DNA of 49,188 bases, taken from Marivita sp. (GTDB lineage: Bacteria > Pseudomonadota > Alphaproteobacteria > Rhodobacterales > Rhodobacteraceae). The DNA is taken from contig NZ_JAEPMO010000009.1 in NCBI RefSeq assembly GCF_017643905.1, positions 1-49,188 of the forward strand, written 5' to 3'. The translations under genes were made by a program, and so were the position numbers. Under the pieces are notes generated by a model. The model was given only the letters and a program-made list of their open reading frames with translations, searched no databases and was not told the origin of the DNA. Shown here piece after piece: positions 4,579-46,526 of the stretch; positions within the stretch are counted from its first letter, which is position 1, and the number at the start of each line of letters is the position of its first letter.

Positions 4579-5709
4579 TTACATCTTGCAGTCGGCGGCG
4601 TAGACGTCGCCGTGGTTCTCAAGGGCGGTGCCGATGATCTTGTTGGTGAAGACATCGCCTTCCTTGATGACTTCGCGGGCGTAGATCGTCTGGATCGGGT
4701 GATGGTTCGGCCCGAACTTGAACGCGCCCCGGGTGCTGTCGAAATCGGCAGCCCGAAGCGCCTCGCGGAAGGCATCGGCGTCTGACACTTCGGCTTTCTC
4801 AAGCGCCGACAGGATCAAGTTCGCCGTGTCAAAGCCCTGGCTCGCGTAAAGCGACGGCAAACGCCCATATTCCGCCTGGAAGCTCTCGACAAAGGCAGCG
4901 TTGGTCGGGTTGTCGATGTCCTTGTTCCACTGGCTCGTGTTCACCACGCCAAGCGCCGCATCGCCCACCGCTTGCAGGATGCCCTGATCAAAGCTGAAGG
5001 CCGGGCCCACGACGGGCAGATCGACACCGCTGTCGGCATATTGCTTGAGGAAGGAAATCCCCATCCCGCCGGGCAGGAAGAAGAACACGCTGTCGGCACC
5101 GGAGGCGCGGATCTGCGCGATCTCGGCGGCATAGTCGGTCTGACCAAGCTGGGTGTAAACCTCGCCCGCCAGTTCGCCCTTGAACATGCGCTTGAACCCG
5201 GTCAGCGCGTCCTGACCCGCCGGGTAGTTGGGCGCAAGGATGAAGGTGTTGGAAAAGCCTGCGGATGTCGCATAAGCGCCCGCCGCTTCGTGCAGGTTGT
5301 CGTTCTGCCATGCCACGTTGAAATAGTTTTGATGACAGCCCTGTCCCGCGAGCGCCGAGGGCCCCGCGTTCGGGGACAGGTAGAACTTGCCCTGTGCGGT
5401 GACGCTCGGGATCACGGCCATGGCAAGGTTCGACCAGATAATCCCGGTCAGGATGTCGACGCGTTCGGACTGGACCATCTTGTCGGCCAGTTGCACGGCG
5501 ATGTCGGGCTTTTGCTGGTCGTCCTCGATCACGACTTCGATGTCATCCCGGCCCGACTGGCCGATGGCCAGCATGAAGCCATCCCGAACGTCAATGCCAA
5601 GGCCCGCGCCGCCGCCGGACAGGGTGGTGATCATGCCGATCTTCGTTTCGGCAAAGGCGGATGTCGCGCCGATTGCCAAGGCCGCTGTGGCCATCAATAG
5701 CTTTTTCAT
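4579..5709 (-). CDS. ABC transporter periplasmic substrate-binding protein (LivK-like)
   Basis: MKKLLMATAALAIGATSAFAETKIGMITTLSGGGAGLGIDVRDGFMLA; signal peptide and Peripla_BP_6-like sequence; upstream of liv genes. Confidence 0.9.
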   Translation of the reverse strand: MKKLLMATAALAIGATSAFAETKIGMITTLSGGGAGLGIDVRDGFMLAIGQSGRDDIEVVIEDDQQKPDIAVQLADKMVQSERVDILTGIIWSNLAMAVIPSVTAQGKFYLSPNAGPSALAGQGCHQNYFNVAWQNDNLHEAAGAYATSAGFSNTFILAPNYPAGQDALTGFKRMFKGELAGEVYTQLGQTDYAAEIAQIRASGADSVFFFLPGGMGISFLKQYADSGVDLPVVGPAFSFDQGILQAVGDAALGVVNTSQWNKDIDNPTNAAFVESFQAEYGRLPSLYASQGFDTANLILSALEKAEVSDADAFREALRAADFDSTRGAFKFGPNHHPIQTIYAREVIKEGDVFTNKIIGTALENHGDVYAADCKM

Positions 5710-26527: not shown

Positions 26528-27187
26528 ATGGACCTCTATCTCGATACCGCGGACCAGGACGCTTGGGCAGACCTTATGCCCAGCGGTCTTTTCCGGGGCA
26601 TCACAACCAACCCGCTGCTCGCCCACCGCGCGGGTCTGACCTATCCGACGATCAACTGGGCCGACATGGCGCACCGCGCCCGTGACCTGGGCGCGCAAGA
26701 GCTGCACGCGCAGGTCTTTGGCCCGGTGGAAACCTATCTCGATTGGGCCAGCCGCCTTTACGAAGCTGGAGCTACTGCAGGGCTGCGCACCGTCGTCAAG
26801 ATCCCGATGACACCCGATGCTCTGAAGGCGGTGCCTGCTGTTCGGGCGCTGGGTGGTCCGATCCTCCTGACAGCCGTCTATGACCCCAAACAGGTGATCG
26901 TCGCCAAGGCGTTGGTCGCCGATTTCGTGGCCCCTTATTTCGGGCGGATGCAGGAGGCAGGTTTGCCCGCCCTTGACCACCTGTCCAAGATGCAGGCGAT
27001 CGTTGGCGGGACCCCCCGCATCCTTGTCGCATCCCTGAGGACCAGCGACCAGATGGTGTCCCTCGCCGCCTTGGGTCTCGACTGCTTTACTTTGGCCCCG
27101 GACATTGCGCGCAGTCTCCTCTCCGATCCGATGACCGAACAGGCGACCGCCGCATTCGAAGCCGCGGCGGCGGGACGCGATCTATAA
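26528..27187 (+). CDS. transaldolase family protein (fructose-6-phosphate aldolase-like)
   Basis: MDLYLDTADQDAWADLMPSGLFRGITTNPLL; VVKIPMTPDALKAV. Confidence 0.85.
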   Translation: MDLYLDTADQDAWADLMPSGLFRGITTNPLLAHRAGLTYPTINWADMAHRARDLGAQELHAQVFGPVETYLDWASRLYEAGATAGLRTVVKIPMTPDALKAVPAVRALGGPILLTAVYDPKQVIVAKALVADFVAPYFGRMQEAGLPALDHLSKMQAIVGGTPRILVASLRTSDQMVSLAALGLDCFTLAPDIARSLLSDPMTEQATAAFEAAAAGRDL

Positions 27188-27484
27188 AGACAGCCGTCGC
27201 TCCTTTGCTCCACCTCTCCGGCGTGGCTTCGGCAGCGCCAGTTCAAGCGGTGTGAGCGGCGCGTCCAACGACGCCTTCAACAGCGCACAGAATTCTGCAA
27301 CCGCCGGATCGGTCTCCCGAAATGGCGTGGCAGCCATATAGGCACAGGTGGCTTCGGTCAGGTAACAGGCTTGCGCCGGCAAGCTTCCAAGCCATTGCAT
27401 GTAGCCCAATTGCCCGATTTCCCGCGCCCGTTCTGCCGTGCGGGGATTGACCTGCAACTGGGTCAGTGTTCGTTCGATAGACAT
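27182..27484 (-). CDS. small hypothetical protein (100 aa) downstream of a cobalamin riboswitch
   Basis: MSIERTLTQLQVNPRTAERAREIGQLGYMQWLGSLPAQACYLTEATCAYMAATPFRETD...; ATG at 27484 preceded by GGAGG. Confidence 0.7.
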   Translation of the reverse strand: MSIERTLTQLQVNPRTAERAREIGQLGYMQWLGSLPAQACYLTEATCAYMAATPFRETDPAVAEFCALLKASLDAPLTPLELALPKPRRRGGAKERRLSL

Positions 27485-27597
27485 AAAAGCGCCCTCCGCG
27501 CTGGGACGGGTCGCATTGAGGCCGCACGCATGTTTTGCGCGTTTCGGGCGCAAGGCATCTCGACCTCCGGTGCACCCCGCCCGGGTTCAGTTCACGT

Positions 27598-27780
27598 AAG
27601 ATGGCAGGTCTCCTGACTCGCGGGTCATCGTGCGGCTCGCACCTTCCCAGACCAAACGGTCCAGTGGTTTTGCGCGAAGCACTCACCGCTTACAGTTGCG
27701 GGGGCAGTCACGGATTTTCACCGTATTCCCTATTCGGACAGCGCATCACACGCTGCCCACCATCAAAATTCACTGTCACA
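27598..27780 (-). promoter_or_regulatory. cobalamin (AdoCbl) riboswitch
   Basis: Minus strand: GGGAATACGGTGAAAATCCGTGACTGCCCCCGCAACTGTAAGCGGTGAGT...CCACTGG...GGGAAGGTGCGAG...GAGTCAGGAGACCTGCCAT; hallmark B12-box elements; 5' boundary approximate. Confidence 0.95.
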
Positions 27781-28012: not shown

Positions 28013-31000
28013 TCACATGACAAAGGGCTGGTCGGCGACCCCGACCAACTGCATCAGGAAGCCGTCGCGCGTGCCACCAACGATATCGGCATGCAGATTG
28101 TCGCTTTGCAGGCGCCCGGCCTCAAGACTGCTGTCCGATCCGTCGAAACTTTGCATCACGATATGCGCGGCGGGCAGGTCCGACAGGCCAAGCGTCACGG
28201 CAAAATGACCACCCAGCAGCACCTTGTTGCCCAGATATGCGGCGTCCGCAGGCCCACCCGTTTCCGCCTTCGCCCCTTCCAGAATGGCGCGAATGAACTG
28301 CGACGGCGCCAGCCCGGCCTCATCCTCAAGCGCGTCCAACCAGAATGCCATGCCCGTCGCATCCGGCGCGCGCCCCAAAACATTTTCGTAGACCGCGGTG
28401 ACGAAGGACGGCATGTCCTCCAAAGCACCGTACAAGTTGCGGGTTTCCGGCTGGTCGAAGAAATACCCTGCGATCTCACGCAGGCTCATGCCATCGGCAA
28501 GCTGGTTGCCCCAGAAGTAAAGCCCGACTGCGTCCGGCGCGCGGTTGAAATAGGCGATGTAAAGCTCGGTCAAGGCTTCCATTGCTTCGCCGTCCAGCCG
28601 GGCCATGCCATCGAACATGTCAATCGAGATGCCGGTGGTCGAAAATGGGTGCACTTCCCGCTCGAAATCGACCTGTTCTATGCTTCTCAATTGCAGCGGC
28701 GTTGCGCCCGCCACGCGGTTTTCGATCCGGATCTCGTCTCCGGAAAACCGCAACGAATAGCTGCTTTGATCACCATTCAAAAATACAGTATCGAACCCGT
28801 CTCCCCCGTCGATCAGAACCTCACCTGTCTGCGGGCTGAACACATCGTCGCCACTGGTGGCCCCTGGTGTGGGGCTCGGTCCATCGTCTTGCACCCGATC
28901 GCCGGACCTTTCCGTAAATGGTCCAACCAGTGGTTTGGGCAATCCAAGCCCGATCTGCTCTCCCACCCACTCGACGATCTGTTGGTAGTTTTGAGCGACG
29001 GTTGGATGGATTGTGTTTGGGATTTGGATGTTTTGCGGGGGTGTTGTTCCGGTGAGTGTTGTGTAGTGGAGGAGGGATGCGAGGAAGGCGAGTGTTGGGG
29101 TGGCGTGGCCTTCGTCGTCGAGGAAGAGGTCGCGTGCGGAGAGGCGTGTGAGGCCAATCTCGGGTGTGTCGAGCATGTCGGCGATGCGGGGTCCGACGCT
29201 GATGAGGCGGACGTCGAGGTTGGGGCGGGCCTGCTGGATCATCTCGGTGAGGTCGACCCACCAGCCGTGCCAGTCGCCGGTCATGAGATCGGTCCATGCG
29301 GCGAAGGCGGCCGGGCTGGAGGGGAAGCCATCCATTTCGGGCCAGGTCTCGTAGATGTTGACGGCAGCGCCGGGGGCGCGGGCCTGGGTCCAGTCGATGA
29401 TGCGCAGCGCGGCTTCCAGCGGCGAGGTTGCGGGCTCGTGCCAATAGGGGCTGTCGGGGGACTGGTCCTGCACGAAGTTGACCGCCGAGAGGGTGATCTG
29501 GGTGAAGCCGGCCTCGGCAAAGCTCTGGCCGCTTTCCGGGTCCCAGACGGAGTCGACTCCATCGAGCCAGAGATGCGGGTTCGGCGGCAGGTCGTCATGC
29601 CGGGTCAGCATGCCGGTCTGGATGTCGACGGCATAGGAGGTGCCGGCAGCCTCGGCCAGCATATCGGTCCAGTAGGGCACGGAGGCTTCGGGATCGCCAT
29701 TGCCCCAGGCGAAGAGATCATTGCCGAAGACATATTCGCGGACCGCGTCCACCGGCTGCGGTGCCGGGGTCGGCGTGACGTCCGGTTCGGGCTCTGGCTG
29801 GGGGTCCGGCTCAGGCAGCGGTGTCGGTTCGGGTTGCGGCTCCGGGCGGGGCTGGGGGGTGACGACCGGAGCGTCGTCGTCCTCGTCCTCCTGCGGTGCG
29901 GGCGCGGGGGCGGTGCCGAAGTCGAAATCGGCATTGCCCGTGATCCCGTCCTTCATCGTGGCGGGGGCGGGATGGCTGTCCATGAACGCCACCACGGCGT
30001 CATGGCGCGCGGTGCTGTCCTGCAGGTGGCGCAGCGACCCCCAGCTGCCCCACTGGCTGGGCTCGGAGACATCGACGAAGACGTTGAACAGCGTGCCACC
30101 GGCCGTTTCCCAACCCGCGAGCAGCTCGGTGTAGAGCTGGCCCATGCCGGCGGAATAGTTGAGATGGGTGAAGAACTCGGTGAGCAGGTCGTTGTTGACC
30201 CAGGACCCGACACCGACCACATGGGTGCCGCCCTCGTACATCACCAGATCGAGGCCATGCGCATCGGCCACCGCCTTGTGATAGCGGAAGAGCTCGAACA
30301 TGCCCTGCAGGGAATCCTCGGCATTGCCGGTGACGGAGCCGTCGCGCAGCTCGCGCACGGCCAGAGCGAAGCGGTGCTGGGCGACATAGGCCTGGGCGGC
30401 AGTCCCGCTCAGCCCCTGGGCCTGCGCCTCCTGGCGGGCCTGCGCCTCGCTCTGGGCGATCCAGTCGAGCACGGCGGGGGCTTTCTCGTCGGTGCCGAGG
30501 CTGTTGCCGAAATAGCCGGTGATCGCATAGGTGTCGAAGGAGAGATAGGGCGCATCATTGGCCGGGCTGAGGGCCTGCCAGGCCGGGGCGTCCAGAAGGG
30601 ACTCCTCGAGACCGGGCCAGTAGGTGTGGGTCGCGATGACCTTGACCAGTCGATCCTCGTTGCCGGCATAGACGCTGTCGAGCACGCGGGCCATCTCGGC
30701 GGAGCGGGCGCCGTATTCCTGCATCCAGCCATCGCCAAGGTCCTGACCAAAGCGCGCTTCTGCGGCGGTCACGGCCTCGCGGGCCTGTTCGAACATCCAG
30801 TTCCAGACCTCGTTGGACATCTCGATATGGGCGCGCAGATCGGGGTCGAGATTGTCGCGCACATAGGTAGCGAAGTTGCGGATATAGGTCTCGTCGGCAT
30901 TCCAGGGGATGTTGAACCAGGGCTCGGTGCCGGTGGCATTGGCCAGCGCCACCATGACCTCGAGGGGCACACCCTCGGAATAGGTGTAGGTGCTGGGTGT

Positions 31001-31633
31001 GGGGCGGTCGGACCAGCTGCGGATGGTGGATTCGTTGGTCTCCTGCCAATCCATGAAGCGCAGACCCTGGGCGTCGTTGATGACCTCGAGCCAGAGCGGG
31101 TTGAAAAGCGCGCCCGCCTCGAAGGCGGGGATGTACTCTTGTTTGACCACCTCGATATTGCGCAGGTAGTCGCCGGTGTTCTGCGGATCGGTGGCGGAGA
31201 TGGAAACGACGACCATGCCTTCGCCGGTGGGGGTGTAGTTGAACCAGATCTCGCCATCGGATTGCGACACGATCTCGGCGCCGTAAACGGAAATCTCGCC
31301 CGCGCCGTCATAGCTCAGCCGGTAGGTGCCCGCCGTATAGAGCGCCTCCGCCGGCATCTCGGTCAGGATGAAGGTCTCGACCCGGTCGACACCCGCAGGC
31401 AGATCGGTGATCCAGCCATTGGCATCCAGAACACCCATCGCCTCAAGATCCTCGGCCATATAGGCGCCCCACTGGCTCTCGGTATGCGCGTGCCACGCCC
31501 GCGCCGTCTTGAACACGTCCAGAAACGGCTGCTGCACACTCCAGTCAACAATCCCCCGCAACCCAAACGAAAGACCCGCCGCAGACGTCTGCGTCCCGAA
31601 TACATCAACCAAAGGTTCCATACCCCACTCCAT
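28013..31633 (-). CDS. large modular secreted protein: clan GH-A-like glycosidase domain, Pro/Glu-rich linker, SGNH-like domain, RTX-like segment, DUF4214-like C-terminus
   Basis: 1206 aa; HIEMSNEVWNWMFEQ and DLVMYEGGTH candidate catalytic Glu motifs; PQPRPEPQPEPTPLPEPDPQPEPEP linker; GDDVF..DGGDGFDTVFLNG; LYIAYFNRAPDAVGLYFWGNQLADGMSLREIAGYFFDQPE; no N-terminal signal peptide. Confidence 0.85.
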   Translation of the reverse strand: MEWGMEPLVDVFGTQTSAAGLSFGLRGIVDWSVQQPFLDVFKTARAWHAHTESQWGAYMAEDLEAMGVLDANGWITDLPAGVDRVETFILTEMPAEALYTAGTYRLSYDGAGEISVYGAEIVSQSDGEIWFNYTPTGEGMVVVSISATDPQNTGDYLRNIEVVKQEYIPAFEAGALFNPLWLEVINDAQGLRFMDWQETNESTIRSWSDRPTPSTYTYSEGVPLEVMVALANATGTEPWFNIPWNADETYIRNFATYVRDNLDPDLRAHIEMSNEVWNWMFEQAREAVTAAEARFGQDLGDGWMQEYGARSAEMARVLDSVYAGNEDRLVKVIATHTYWPGLEESLLDAPAWQALSPANDAPYLSFDTYAITGYFGNSLGTDEKAPAVLDWIAQSEAQARQEAQAQGLSGTAAQAYVAQHRFALAVRELRDGSVTGNAEDSLQGMFELFRYHKAVADAHGLDLVMYEGGTHVVGVGSWVNNDLLTEFFTHLNYSAGMGQLYTELLAGWETAGGTLFNVFVDVSEPSQWGSWGSLRHLQDSTARHDAVVAFMDSHPAPATMKDGITGNADFDFGTAPAPAPQEDEDDDAPVVTPQPRPEPQPEPTPLPEPDPQPEPEPDVTPTPAPQPVDAVREYVFGNDLFAWGNGDPEASVPYWTDMLAEAAGTSYAVDIQTGMLTRHDDLPPNPHLWLDGVDSVWDPESGQSFAEAGFTQITLSAVNFVQDQSPDSPYWHEPATSPLEAALRIIDWTQARAPGAAVNIYETWPEMDGFPSSPAAFAAWTDLMTGDWHGWWVDLTEMIQQARPNLDVRLISVGPRIADMLDTPEIGLTRLSARDLFLDDEGHATPTLAFLASLLHYTTLTGTTPPQNIQIPNTIHPTVAQNYQQIVEWVGEQIGLGLPKPLVGPFTERSGDRVQDDGPSPTPGATSGDDVFSPQTGEVLIDGGDGFDTVFLNGDQSSYSLRFSGDEIRIENRVAGATPLQLRSIEQVDFEREVHPFSTTGISIDMFDGMARLDGEAMEALTELYIAYFNRAPDAVGLYFWGNQLADGMSLREIAGYFFDQPETRNLYGALEDMPSFVTAVYENVLGRAPDATGMAFWLDALEDEAGLAPSQFIRAILEGAKAETGGPADAAYLGNKVLLGGHFAVTLGLSDLPAAHIVMQSFDGSDSSLEAGRLQSDNLHADIVGGTRDGFLMQLVGVADQPFVM

Positions 31634-45281: not shown

Positions 45282-45296
45282 CCCAAACCATCATTC

Positions 45297-45341
45297 CCGT
45301 CACAACGGCTTCCTGACGTGACGGCAGACCCTAATGGAGCA
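45297..45341 (+). promoter_or_regulatory. SAM/SAH riboswitch upstream of metK
   Basis: CCGTCACAACGGCTTCCTGACGTGACGGCAGACCCTAATGGAGCA; matches the SAM-SAH motif including the pseudoknotted GGAG. Confidence 0.94.
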
Positions 45342-45344
45342 CTT

Positions 45345-46526
45345 ATGTCCCGACAGAATTATATCTTCACCTCGGAATCCGTGTCCGAGGGCCACCCGGA
45401 TAAGGTCTGCGACCGTATCTCGGACGCGATCCTCGACGCCTTTCTTTCCGAAGAACCCGAAGCGCGGGTCGCCTGCGAAACCTTTGCCACGACCAACCGG
45501 GTCGTGATCGGTGGAGAGGTGGGGCTGTCGGACCAGAACCGTCTTGCCACCTATATGGACCGGGTCCCGGACATCGCCCGTACCTGTATCAAGGACATCG
45601 GCTACGAGCAGGACAAGTTCCACCACGCCACCTGTGAGATCACCAATCTGCTGCACCAGCAATCCGCTCATATCGCGCAGGGCGTGAATGCCAGCGACAA
45701 CAAGGACGAAGGTGCAGGCGATCAGGGCATCATGTTCGGCTACGCCACGAATGAAACAGACGCGCTCATGCCCGCGCCGATCCAGTTCAGCCACGCCATC
45801 CTGCGTCGTCTGGCAGAGGTGCGCAAATCGGGTCAGGAACCGCTGCTGCGCCCCGATGCGAAATCGCAAATCTCTGTCCGCTACGAAAACGGCAAGCCGG
45901 TGGGCGTGACCTCGATCGTTCTGTCGACACAGCACGCCGACGAAAGCCAAAGCTCTGCCGACATCCGTGCGATTGTCGAACCCTATATCCGCGAAGTCCT
46001 GCCCGATGGCTGGATCACCGACGCCACCGAATGGTGGGTCAATCCGACCGGCACGTTCGTAATTGGCGGTCCTGATGGCGACGCCGGTCTCACGGGCCGC
46101 AAGATCATTGTTGACACCTATGGCGGTGCGGCCCCGCATGGTGGCGGTGCGTTCTCCGGCAAAGATCCGACCAAGGTGGACCGCTCGGCCGCCTATGCAG
46201 CGCGCTATTTGGCGAAAAACGTCGTGGCGGCAGGCATGGCCGACCGCTGCACGATCCAGTTGTCCTATGCCATCGGTGTGTCCAAACCGCTGTCGATCTA
46301 TGCTGACACCCATGGCACAGGCGATGTCGATGCCGCCGCCATCGAAGCGGCGATCCCCAAGGTGATGGACCTCACCCCACGCGGCATCCGCACACACCTT
46401 CAACTGAACAAGCCGATCTATGAACGCACGGCGGCTTATGGCCACTTTGGCCGCGCACCCGAAGCGGATGGTGGGTTCAGCTGGGAACGCACCGATCTGG
46501 TGGATGCTCTCAAGGCGTCTGTCTAA
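45345..46526 (+). CDS. metK: S-adenosylmethionine synthetase
   Basis: [59 protein letters not shown]. Confidence 0.97.

Follow-up and report, generated by a model that had tools for sequence, protein, structure and literature searches.

What does a cobalamin riboswitch control when all that follows it is one short open reading frame (ORF)? Such an arrangement occupies the minus strand of the window, the 49,188-nucleotide stretch of a Marivita sp. contig that was analyzed here as a whole. Ocean food webs are shaped by the B12 uptake of marine Rhodobacterales, many of which must import the vitamin or share it with algae. The initial annotation had described a clear B12 riboswitch leading to a single 100-amino-acid ORF of unknown family, positioned tail to tail with a transaldolase gene, and had proposed a new B12-responsive factor that could serve as a transport accessory, a B12-sparing protein or a chaperone.

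The riboswitch, its leader and the 100-codon ORF

The features of the locus, listed in the direction of minus-strand transcription, are as follows.
27586–27779, minus strand: complete cobalamin riboswitch aptamer (RF00174; cmscan 134.7 bits, E = 7.7e-34, model positions 1–189 of 189)
27485–27585, minus strand: leader, or expression platform, from the aptamer to the start codon (101 nt)
27489–27503, minus strand: Shine–Dalgarno hairpin AGCGC-GGAGG-GCGCT, directly 5' of the ATG
27182–27484, minus strand: orphan protein P0001 (100 amino acids, ATG start, TAG stop), with four predicted helices and the Arg-rich tail RRRGGAKERR; candidate new family
26531–27187, plus strand: convergent gene of the TAL_FSA (transaldolase/fructose-6-phosphate aldolase) family (Pfam TAL_FSA, E = 1.6e-21)

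The RF00174 match covers the whole aptamer including the B12 box, with a score of 134.7 bits compared to a gathering score of 31.5 bits, and the description of a clear minus-strand riboswitch is thereby confirmed. Across 44 loci in which cmscan matches were combined with gene starts, the aptamer-to-start spacing was 96–129 nt in nearly all homologs (full range, 38–129 nt). The GGAGG of the leader forms the loop of the hairpin, which is present in the minimum free energy fold. Among the scanned homologs, the four-base core stem around GGAGG was GCGC/GCGC in 48 loci, GTGC/GCAC, compensated on both sides, in two and a G-T-containing form in another two. The same scan applied to the leaders of the other two cobalamin riboswitches of the source genome found no such hairpin. 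The leader thus carries what is looked for in an RF00174 expression platform, a Shine–Dalgarno hairpin beside a same-strand ORF with compensatory changes in homologs, and the hairpin is probably a regulated ribosome-binding element. Its position suggests that it is P13-like and would exert translational control in the manner of the P13 element. With a riboswitch of this class and a hairpin at the ribosome-binding site, adenosylcobalamin (AdoCbl) would be expected to repress the orphan gene: when AdoCbl is scarce, the hairpin would be free and the protein made; when it is plentiful, the aptamer would close the hairpin and the protein would not be made. The locus shares a complete aptamer, a leader of ~100 nt and a hairpin ribosome-binding site before the start with the RF00174 units of btuB, btuCDF, nrdAB and metE, but its product falls in no known family of B12 transport, synthesis, salvage or B12-independent enzymes.

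The 100-amino-acid ORF was found on the minus strand behind the riboswitch and tail to tail with the aldolase gene, as had been claimed. A longer in-frame alternative starting from TTG at 27553 exists; the ATG is preferred because the conserved hairpin and the starts of the homologs favor it. The ORF and the convergent gene share 6 nt at their 3' ends. The naming of that neighbor as a transaldolase holds at the level of TAL_FSA family membership and not for a more exact identity, as the protein scored below every NCBIfam equivalog cut-off; the gene is outside the B12 unit. No B12 gene lies downstream of the orphan on the minus strand, where the next ORF is antisense to the aldolase gene, in agreement with the statement that no cobalamin biosynthesis or transport gene follows. 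The description of a single gene is correct for Marivita and does not extend to the family, since a co-directional gene follows the orphan within ~250 nt in at least 17 loci.

The ORF has a median dN/dS of 0.073 over 16 Marivita-type sequences (120 pairs), with values of 0.03–0.13 for the window-centered pairs, and all 59 of the homologous ORFs compared were intact. By these comparative measures, the orphan ORF is shown to be a real gene under purifying selection, and the reading that it is not translated, which the initial annotation had tied to dN/dS, is not supported.

The protein family and its linkage to the riboswitch

P0001 matched nothing in Pfam or NCBIfam even at E = 1, and 30 family members gave only scattered chance matches to Pfam. 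An hmmsearch against PDB sequences returned nothing at E = 1, and a Foldseek search of PDB with the AlphaFold2 model, which has four helices and a basic tail at a mean pLDDT of 84.8, found no match (best E = 1.2). The assignment to an unknown family therefore stands, and by its absence from the databases searched P0001 appears to represent an undescribed protein family. The 33 divergent members compared share nine invariant residues (L10, G27, W31, A45, A48, F65, R89, G92 and R96), and 30 of them have Cys66. Across the same 33 members, no His, Cys, Asp or Glu is invariant, and columns of His, Asp, Glu or Lys all stay below 75% conservation. This pattern suggests a non-enzymatic protein that lacks conserved catalytic or metal-binding residues.

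Among 85,462 species genomes scanned, 42 loci held a homolog with 44–99% identity. In the source family, a profile search detected the gene in 19 of 249 genomes, and in a class-wide sample it was present in 2 of 385 Alphaproteobacteria. Searches of plasmids and public genomes added homologs from Cereibacter, and from Hoeflea, Oricola and a few other non-Rhodobacterales, respectively. From the 2/385 and 19/249 counts and the few outsiders, it follows that the gene is accessory rather than core. A wider profile search for fusions and remote relatives in the 385 Alphaproteobacteria returned only genome G327 and genome G368; the latter match was rejected, as it has a chance-level score and contains stops.

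The homolog search and linkage check called for by the initial annotation yielded 59 homologous loci, of which 58 are informative; L001 was left out of the count because its contig ends before the expected riboswitch place. An RF00174 match of 109–144 bits lies directly upstream on the same strand in 56 of these 58. In L027, RF00174 heads an operon that holds the orphan homolog and a ZnuA-type metal transporter, and the remote homolog in G327 is the only informative one without a cobalamin riboswitch. Four remote members found at E values of 1e-6 to 1e-8 (L077–L080) are also riboswitch-linked. With only one to eight cobalamin riboswitches per genome in the source family, chance does not account for the linkage, though the loci do share common descent. 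Homologs thus retain both the start region and the riboswitch, the absence of which had been named as grounds for rejecting the gene. Conservation, riboswitch linkage and the lack of a known family together give good support to the proposal of a new B12-responsive factor, and the linkage marks the orphan as a putative undescribed part of the bacterial response to B12 shortage. There is nothing unusual in the riboswitch itself or in finding it at a gene for B12 shortage; the new part, relative to the libraries searched, would be the protein family. Searches of the open-access literature found no paper that links a small alphaproteobacterial protein of unknown function to a cobalamin riboswitch.

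The B12 regulon of the source genome and the neighbors in relatives

Three RF00174 sites were found in the source genome: one before the orphan, one at btuB-btuF and one at btuC-btuD-exbB...tonB. Uptake genes and the orphan thus make up all of the B12 regulon that could be detected, which places the orphan in the same regulon as the uptake genes in its own genome, as would be looked for in an uptake accessory. In this assembly, which is 95% complete, there was no match to the class I ribonucleotide reductase (RNR) small subunit (PF00268) or to the MetH activation domain (PF02965). Matches to the CobN model have a two-peaked distribution, and the best one in the source genome (1.4e-91) belongs to the low group; the low-group matches were taken as probable BchH-type proteins and CobN as probably absent. 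Because class I RNR and MetH were not found and CobN is probably missing, the source species probably depends on B12 and imports it. Auxotrophy was rejected as the driver of gene carriage, as CobN is not depleted in carriers (~10–11 of 19, compared to 168 of 249 overall).

Among the genes that follow the orphan in relatives are those for a cytosolic BtuF-like protein, DUF1289-DUF6925, the N-terminal part of a split MetH and a homocysteine methyltransferase. The BtuF-like gene lies directly downstream in ten loci (L022, L025, L026, L029, L034, L038, L040, L068, L073 and L074), and the junctions mostly overlap, often by 1–4 nt, or lie within 20 nt. The encoded protein (PF01497) starts directly at the first strand of the domain and has no signal peptide; its identity to the reference is 62–90% over 22 members. 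The model (pLDDT 93.4) has a BtuF-class fold that matches Vibrio cholerae BtuF (E = 4e-17) and Escherichia coli BtuF (E = 1.5e-14), and also haem- and iron-binding proteins; with such proteins among the matches, corrinoid binding by the cytosolic protein is at most putative. Elsewhere, the BtuF-like gene follows btuD or cbiZ, and in some genomes it lies inside a btuB...btuC-btuD...exbB-exbD-tonB operon. It is present in 33 of the 249 family genomes, the orphan in 19 and both in 6, a modest co-occurrence by a test that ignores relatedness (Fisher p = 0.026); 27 of the 33 genomes with the BtuF-like gene lack the orphan. In G327, it co-occurs with the riboswitch-less homolog. An obligatory partnership was rejected, as the cytosolic BtuF-like gene is missing from the source genome. 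The copy at L026 5312–6091, of BtuF class, highly conserved and without a signal peptide, itself appears to be undescribed.

Several genomes have DUF1289-DUF6925 genes behind either the orphan or the BtuF-like gene; no paper that joins DUF1289 with cobalamin was found in the open-access literature. On a Cereibacter plasmid, cob and cobalt-transport genes flank the orphan. On Cereibacter azotoformans plasmids, loci L084 and L085 combine genes for cobalamin and cobalt with four to six cobalamin riboswitches inside 20 kb, and the DUF1289 gene after the orphan in L085 appears broken.

Candidate roles of the orphan protein

We favor, at a probability of roughly 45%, the reading that the locus is a single-gene unit of the B12 regulon encoding a small cytosolic, AdoCbl-repressed and non-enzymatic accessory of corrinoid uptake or salvage, acting as an adaptor. 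The adaptor would hold another macromolecule through its helices and basic tail and act on the inner side of a BtuCD/BtuF-type import route; in some relatives, it would pair with the BtuF-like protein encoded next to it, which lacks a signal peptide. This biochemical role is drawn from the company that the gene keeps, namely the regulon of its own genome, the coupling to the BtuF-like gene and the coupling of that gene to btuD and cbiZ. On the same grounds (the btuB-btuF and btuCD-exbB-tonB regulon and the BtuF-like coupling), a transport accessory is the best of the three roles offered by the initial annotation, at the level of genomic context. Counted against the uptake role are the split MetH, NrdAB, GbcAB-like, core MetE and BHMT-like neighbors, which point to B12-dependent or B12-sparing enzymes, the lack of enrichment for CobN absence among carriers and the fact that no fold or sequence relative offers a mechanism.

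Known uptake and salvage systems offer partial likenesses. The orphan shares a regulon with the BtuCD-F importer in the source genome and is co-encoded with a BtuF-class protein in relatives, but it is no binding protein, permease or ATPase itself, and the co-encoded protein differs from BtuF in lacking a signal peptide. The salvage genes DUF71-B12 and CbiZ were recognized by their clustering with B12 uptake genes (PMC3541065). The cytosolic BtuF-like gene that accompanies the orphan is also coupled to CbiZ; neither salvage protein is related to P0001 in sequence, and CbiZ is here an amidohydrolase of ~215 amino acids, whereas the orphan has no conserved catalytic residues. A bolder version of the favored role, in which the orphan and the cytosolic BtuF-class protein, sometimes with DUF1289-DUF6925 and CbiZ, would form an inner-side module for corrinoid capture and hand-over, a B12-uptake step without an assigned protein in these bacteria, served by a family almost obligatorily under riboswitch control, is speculative and on balance doubtful.

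The strongest rival, owing to the Arg-rich tail, is a nucleic-acid-binding regulator: the tail would bind RNA or DNA and tune other B12-responsive transcripts at low B12. The basic C-terminal RR-G-G-x-x-RR motif, which includes the invariant R89, G92 and R96, is the best conserved part in remote members; the tail has a net charge of about +5 and family members a median pI of 9.8. The lack of conserved catalytic residues and the stand-alone placement in many genomes would also suit a trans-acting factor. No helix-turn-helix, KH, ribbon or other nucleic-acid-binding family or fold was matched, however, and the overlapping downstream genes encode a binding protein rather than regulatory targets, which leaves this reading unlikely.

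Somewhat less likely again is a role in sparing B12 or in assisting B12-dependent or alternative enzymes of methionine synthesis, betaine demethylation or ribonucleotide reduction. Neighborhoods in some genomes argue for it. In Hoeflea alexandrii (L021), 10 kb labeled here as a B12-sparing island hold nrdA-nrdB, the orphan and GbcAB-like, flavin-reductase-like and core-MetE-type genes with three cobalamin riboswitches. GbcAB-like genes adjoin the orphan in L018, L020, L030 and L039/L126, a split MetH follows it in L032, L037, L071 and L072, and a homocysteine S-methyltransferase (BHMT-like) gene follows it in Vannielia litorea (L041). MtgBCD is a cobalamin-dependent betaine demethylase of marine bacteria without GbcAB (PMC12478193), and the core methionine synthase MesD is independent of B12 (PMC7857596); B12 control of such neighbor genes is understandable from this background, which is no test of the orphan. 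MesD/MesX and the GbcAB and MtgBCD systems neighbor the orphan in some genomes, several with their own cobalamin riboswitch, but the orphan resembles none of them. The reading is weakened because the client enzymes tested are absent from the source genome and from most carriers (PF02965 in 6 of 19, PF00268 in 3 of 19), and an accessory of class I RNR or MetH was rejected on this basis. No single enzyme is common to all carriers, and many of these enzyme units have a riboswitch of their own. The B12-sparing role proposed by the initial annotation thus draws on neighborhoods in some genomes and finds no counterpart in the source genome.

The third proposed role is improbable; as a cytosolic chaperone, the protein would have to bind corrinoids (cobamides or cobinamide) directly and pass them on to enzymes. 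Expression at B12 shortage would be expected from the riboswitch, and the conserved aromatics W31, Y/F28 and F65 could line a pocket, but the family has no invariant His for lower-ligand coordination, no conserved DXHXXG histidine and no match to a known B12-binding Pfam domain, and P0001 is very small for a cobamide-binding domain. That the ORF is spurious or encodes a translated leader peptide, as a short ORF directly behind a riboswitch and alone on its strand in Marivita might suggest, is ruled out to near certainty by the dN/dS of ~0.07 and the 59 intact ORFs, together with the confidence of the helical model, the conservation seen in homologs of as little as 25–50% identity and the absence in Marivita of any gene downstream that it could regulate.

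Because it is linked to the riboswitch almost without exception, the orphan is a sound candidate for a missing piece of corrinoid handling, and the BtuF-class protein without a signal peptide, found in 33 of 249 family genomes, offers a second target for the same question.

Several minor observations were made along the way. In Rhodobacter calidifons (L126, 473–6757, minus strand), a GbcA/GbcB-like Rieske system lies in line with a split MetH behind a cobalamin riboswitch, a layout that suggests B12 control of betaine demethylation. In L041, a SAH riboswitch (4955–5030, plus strand) is located between the orphan and the BHMT-like gene. The window also encodes a 1,206-amino-acid protein with DUF4214 domains (28013–31633, minus strand), and a second DUF4214-like protein of 737 amino acids, noted by eye, adjoins the btuB riboswitch in the source genome (L082 7358–9571). 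A SAM-SAH riboswitch at window positions 45294–45341 (plus strand; 59.7 bits, gathering score 40) lies directly before metK (ORF 45318–46526) and overlaps its start region, an arrangement ordinary for the group.
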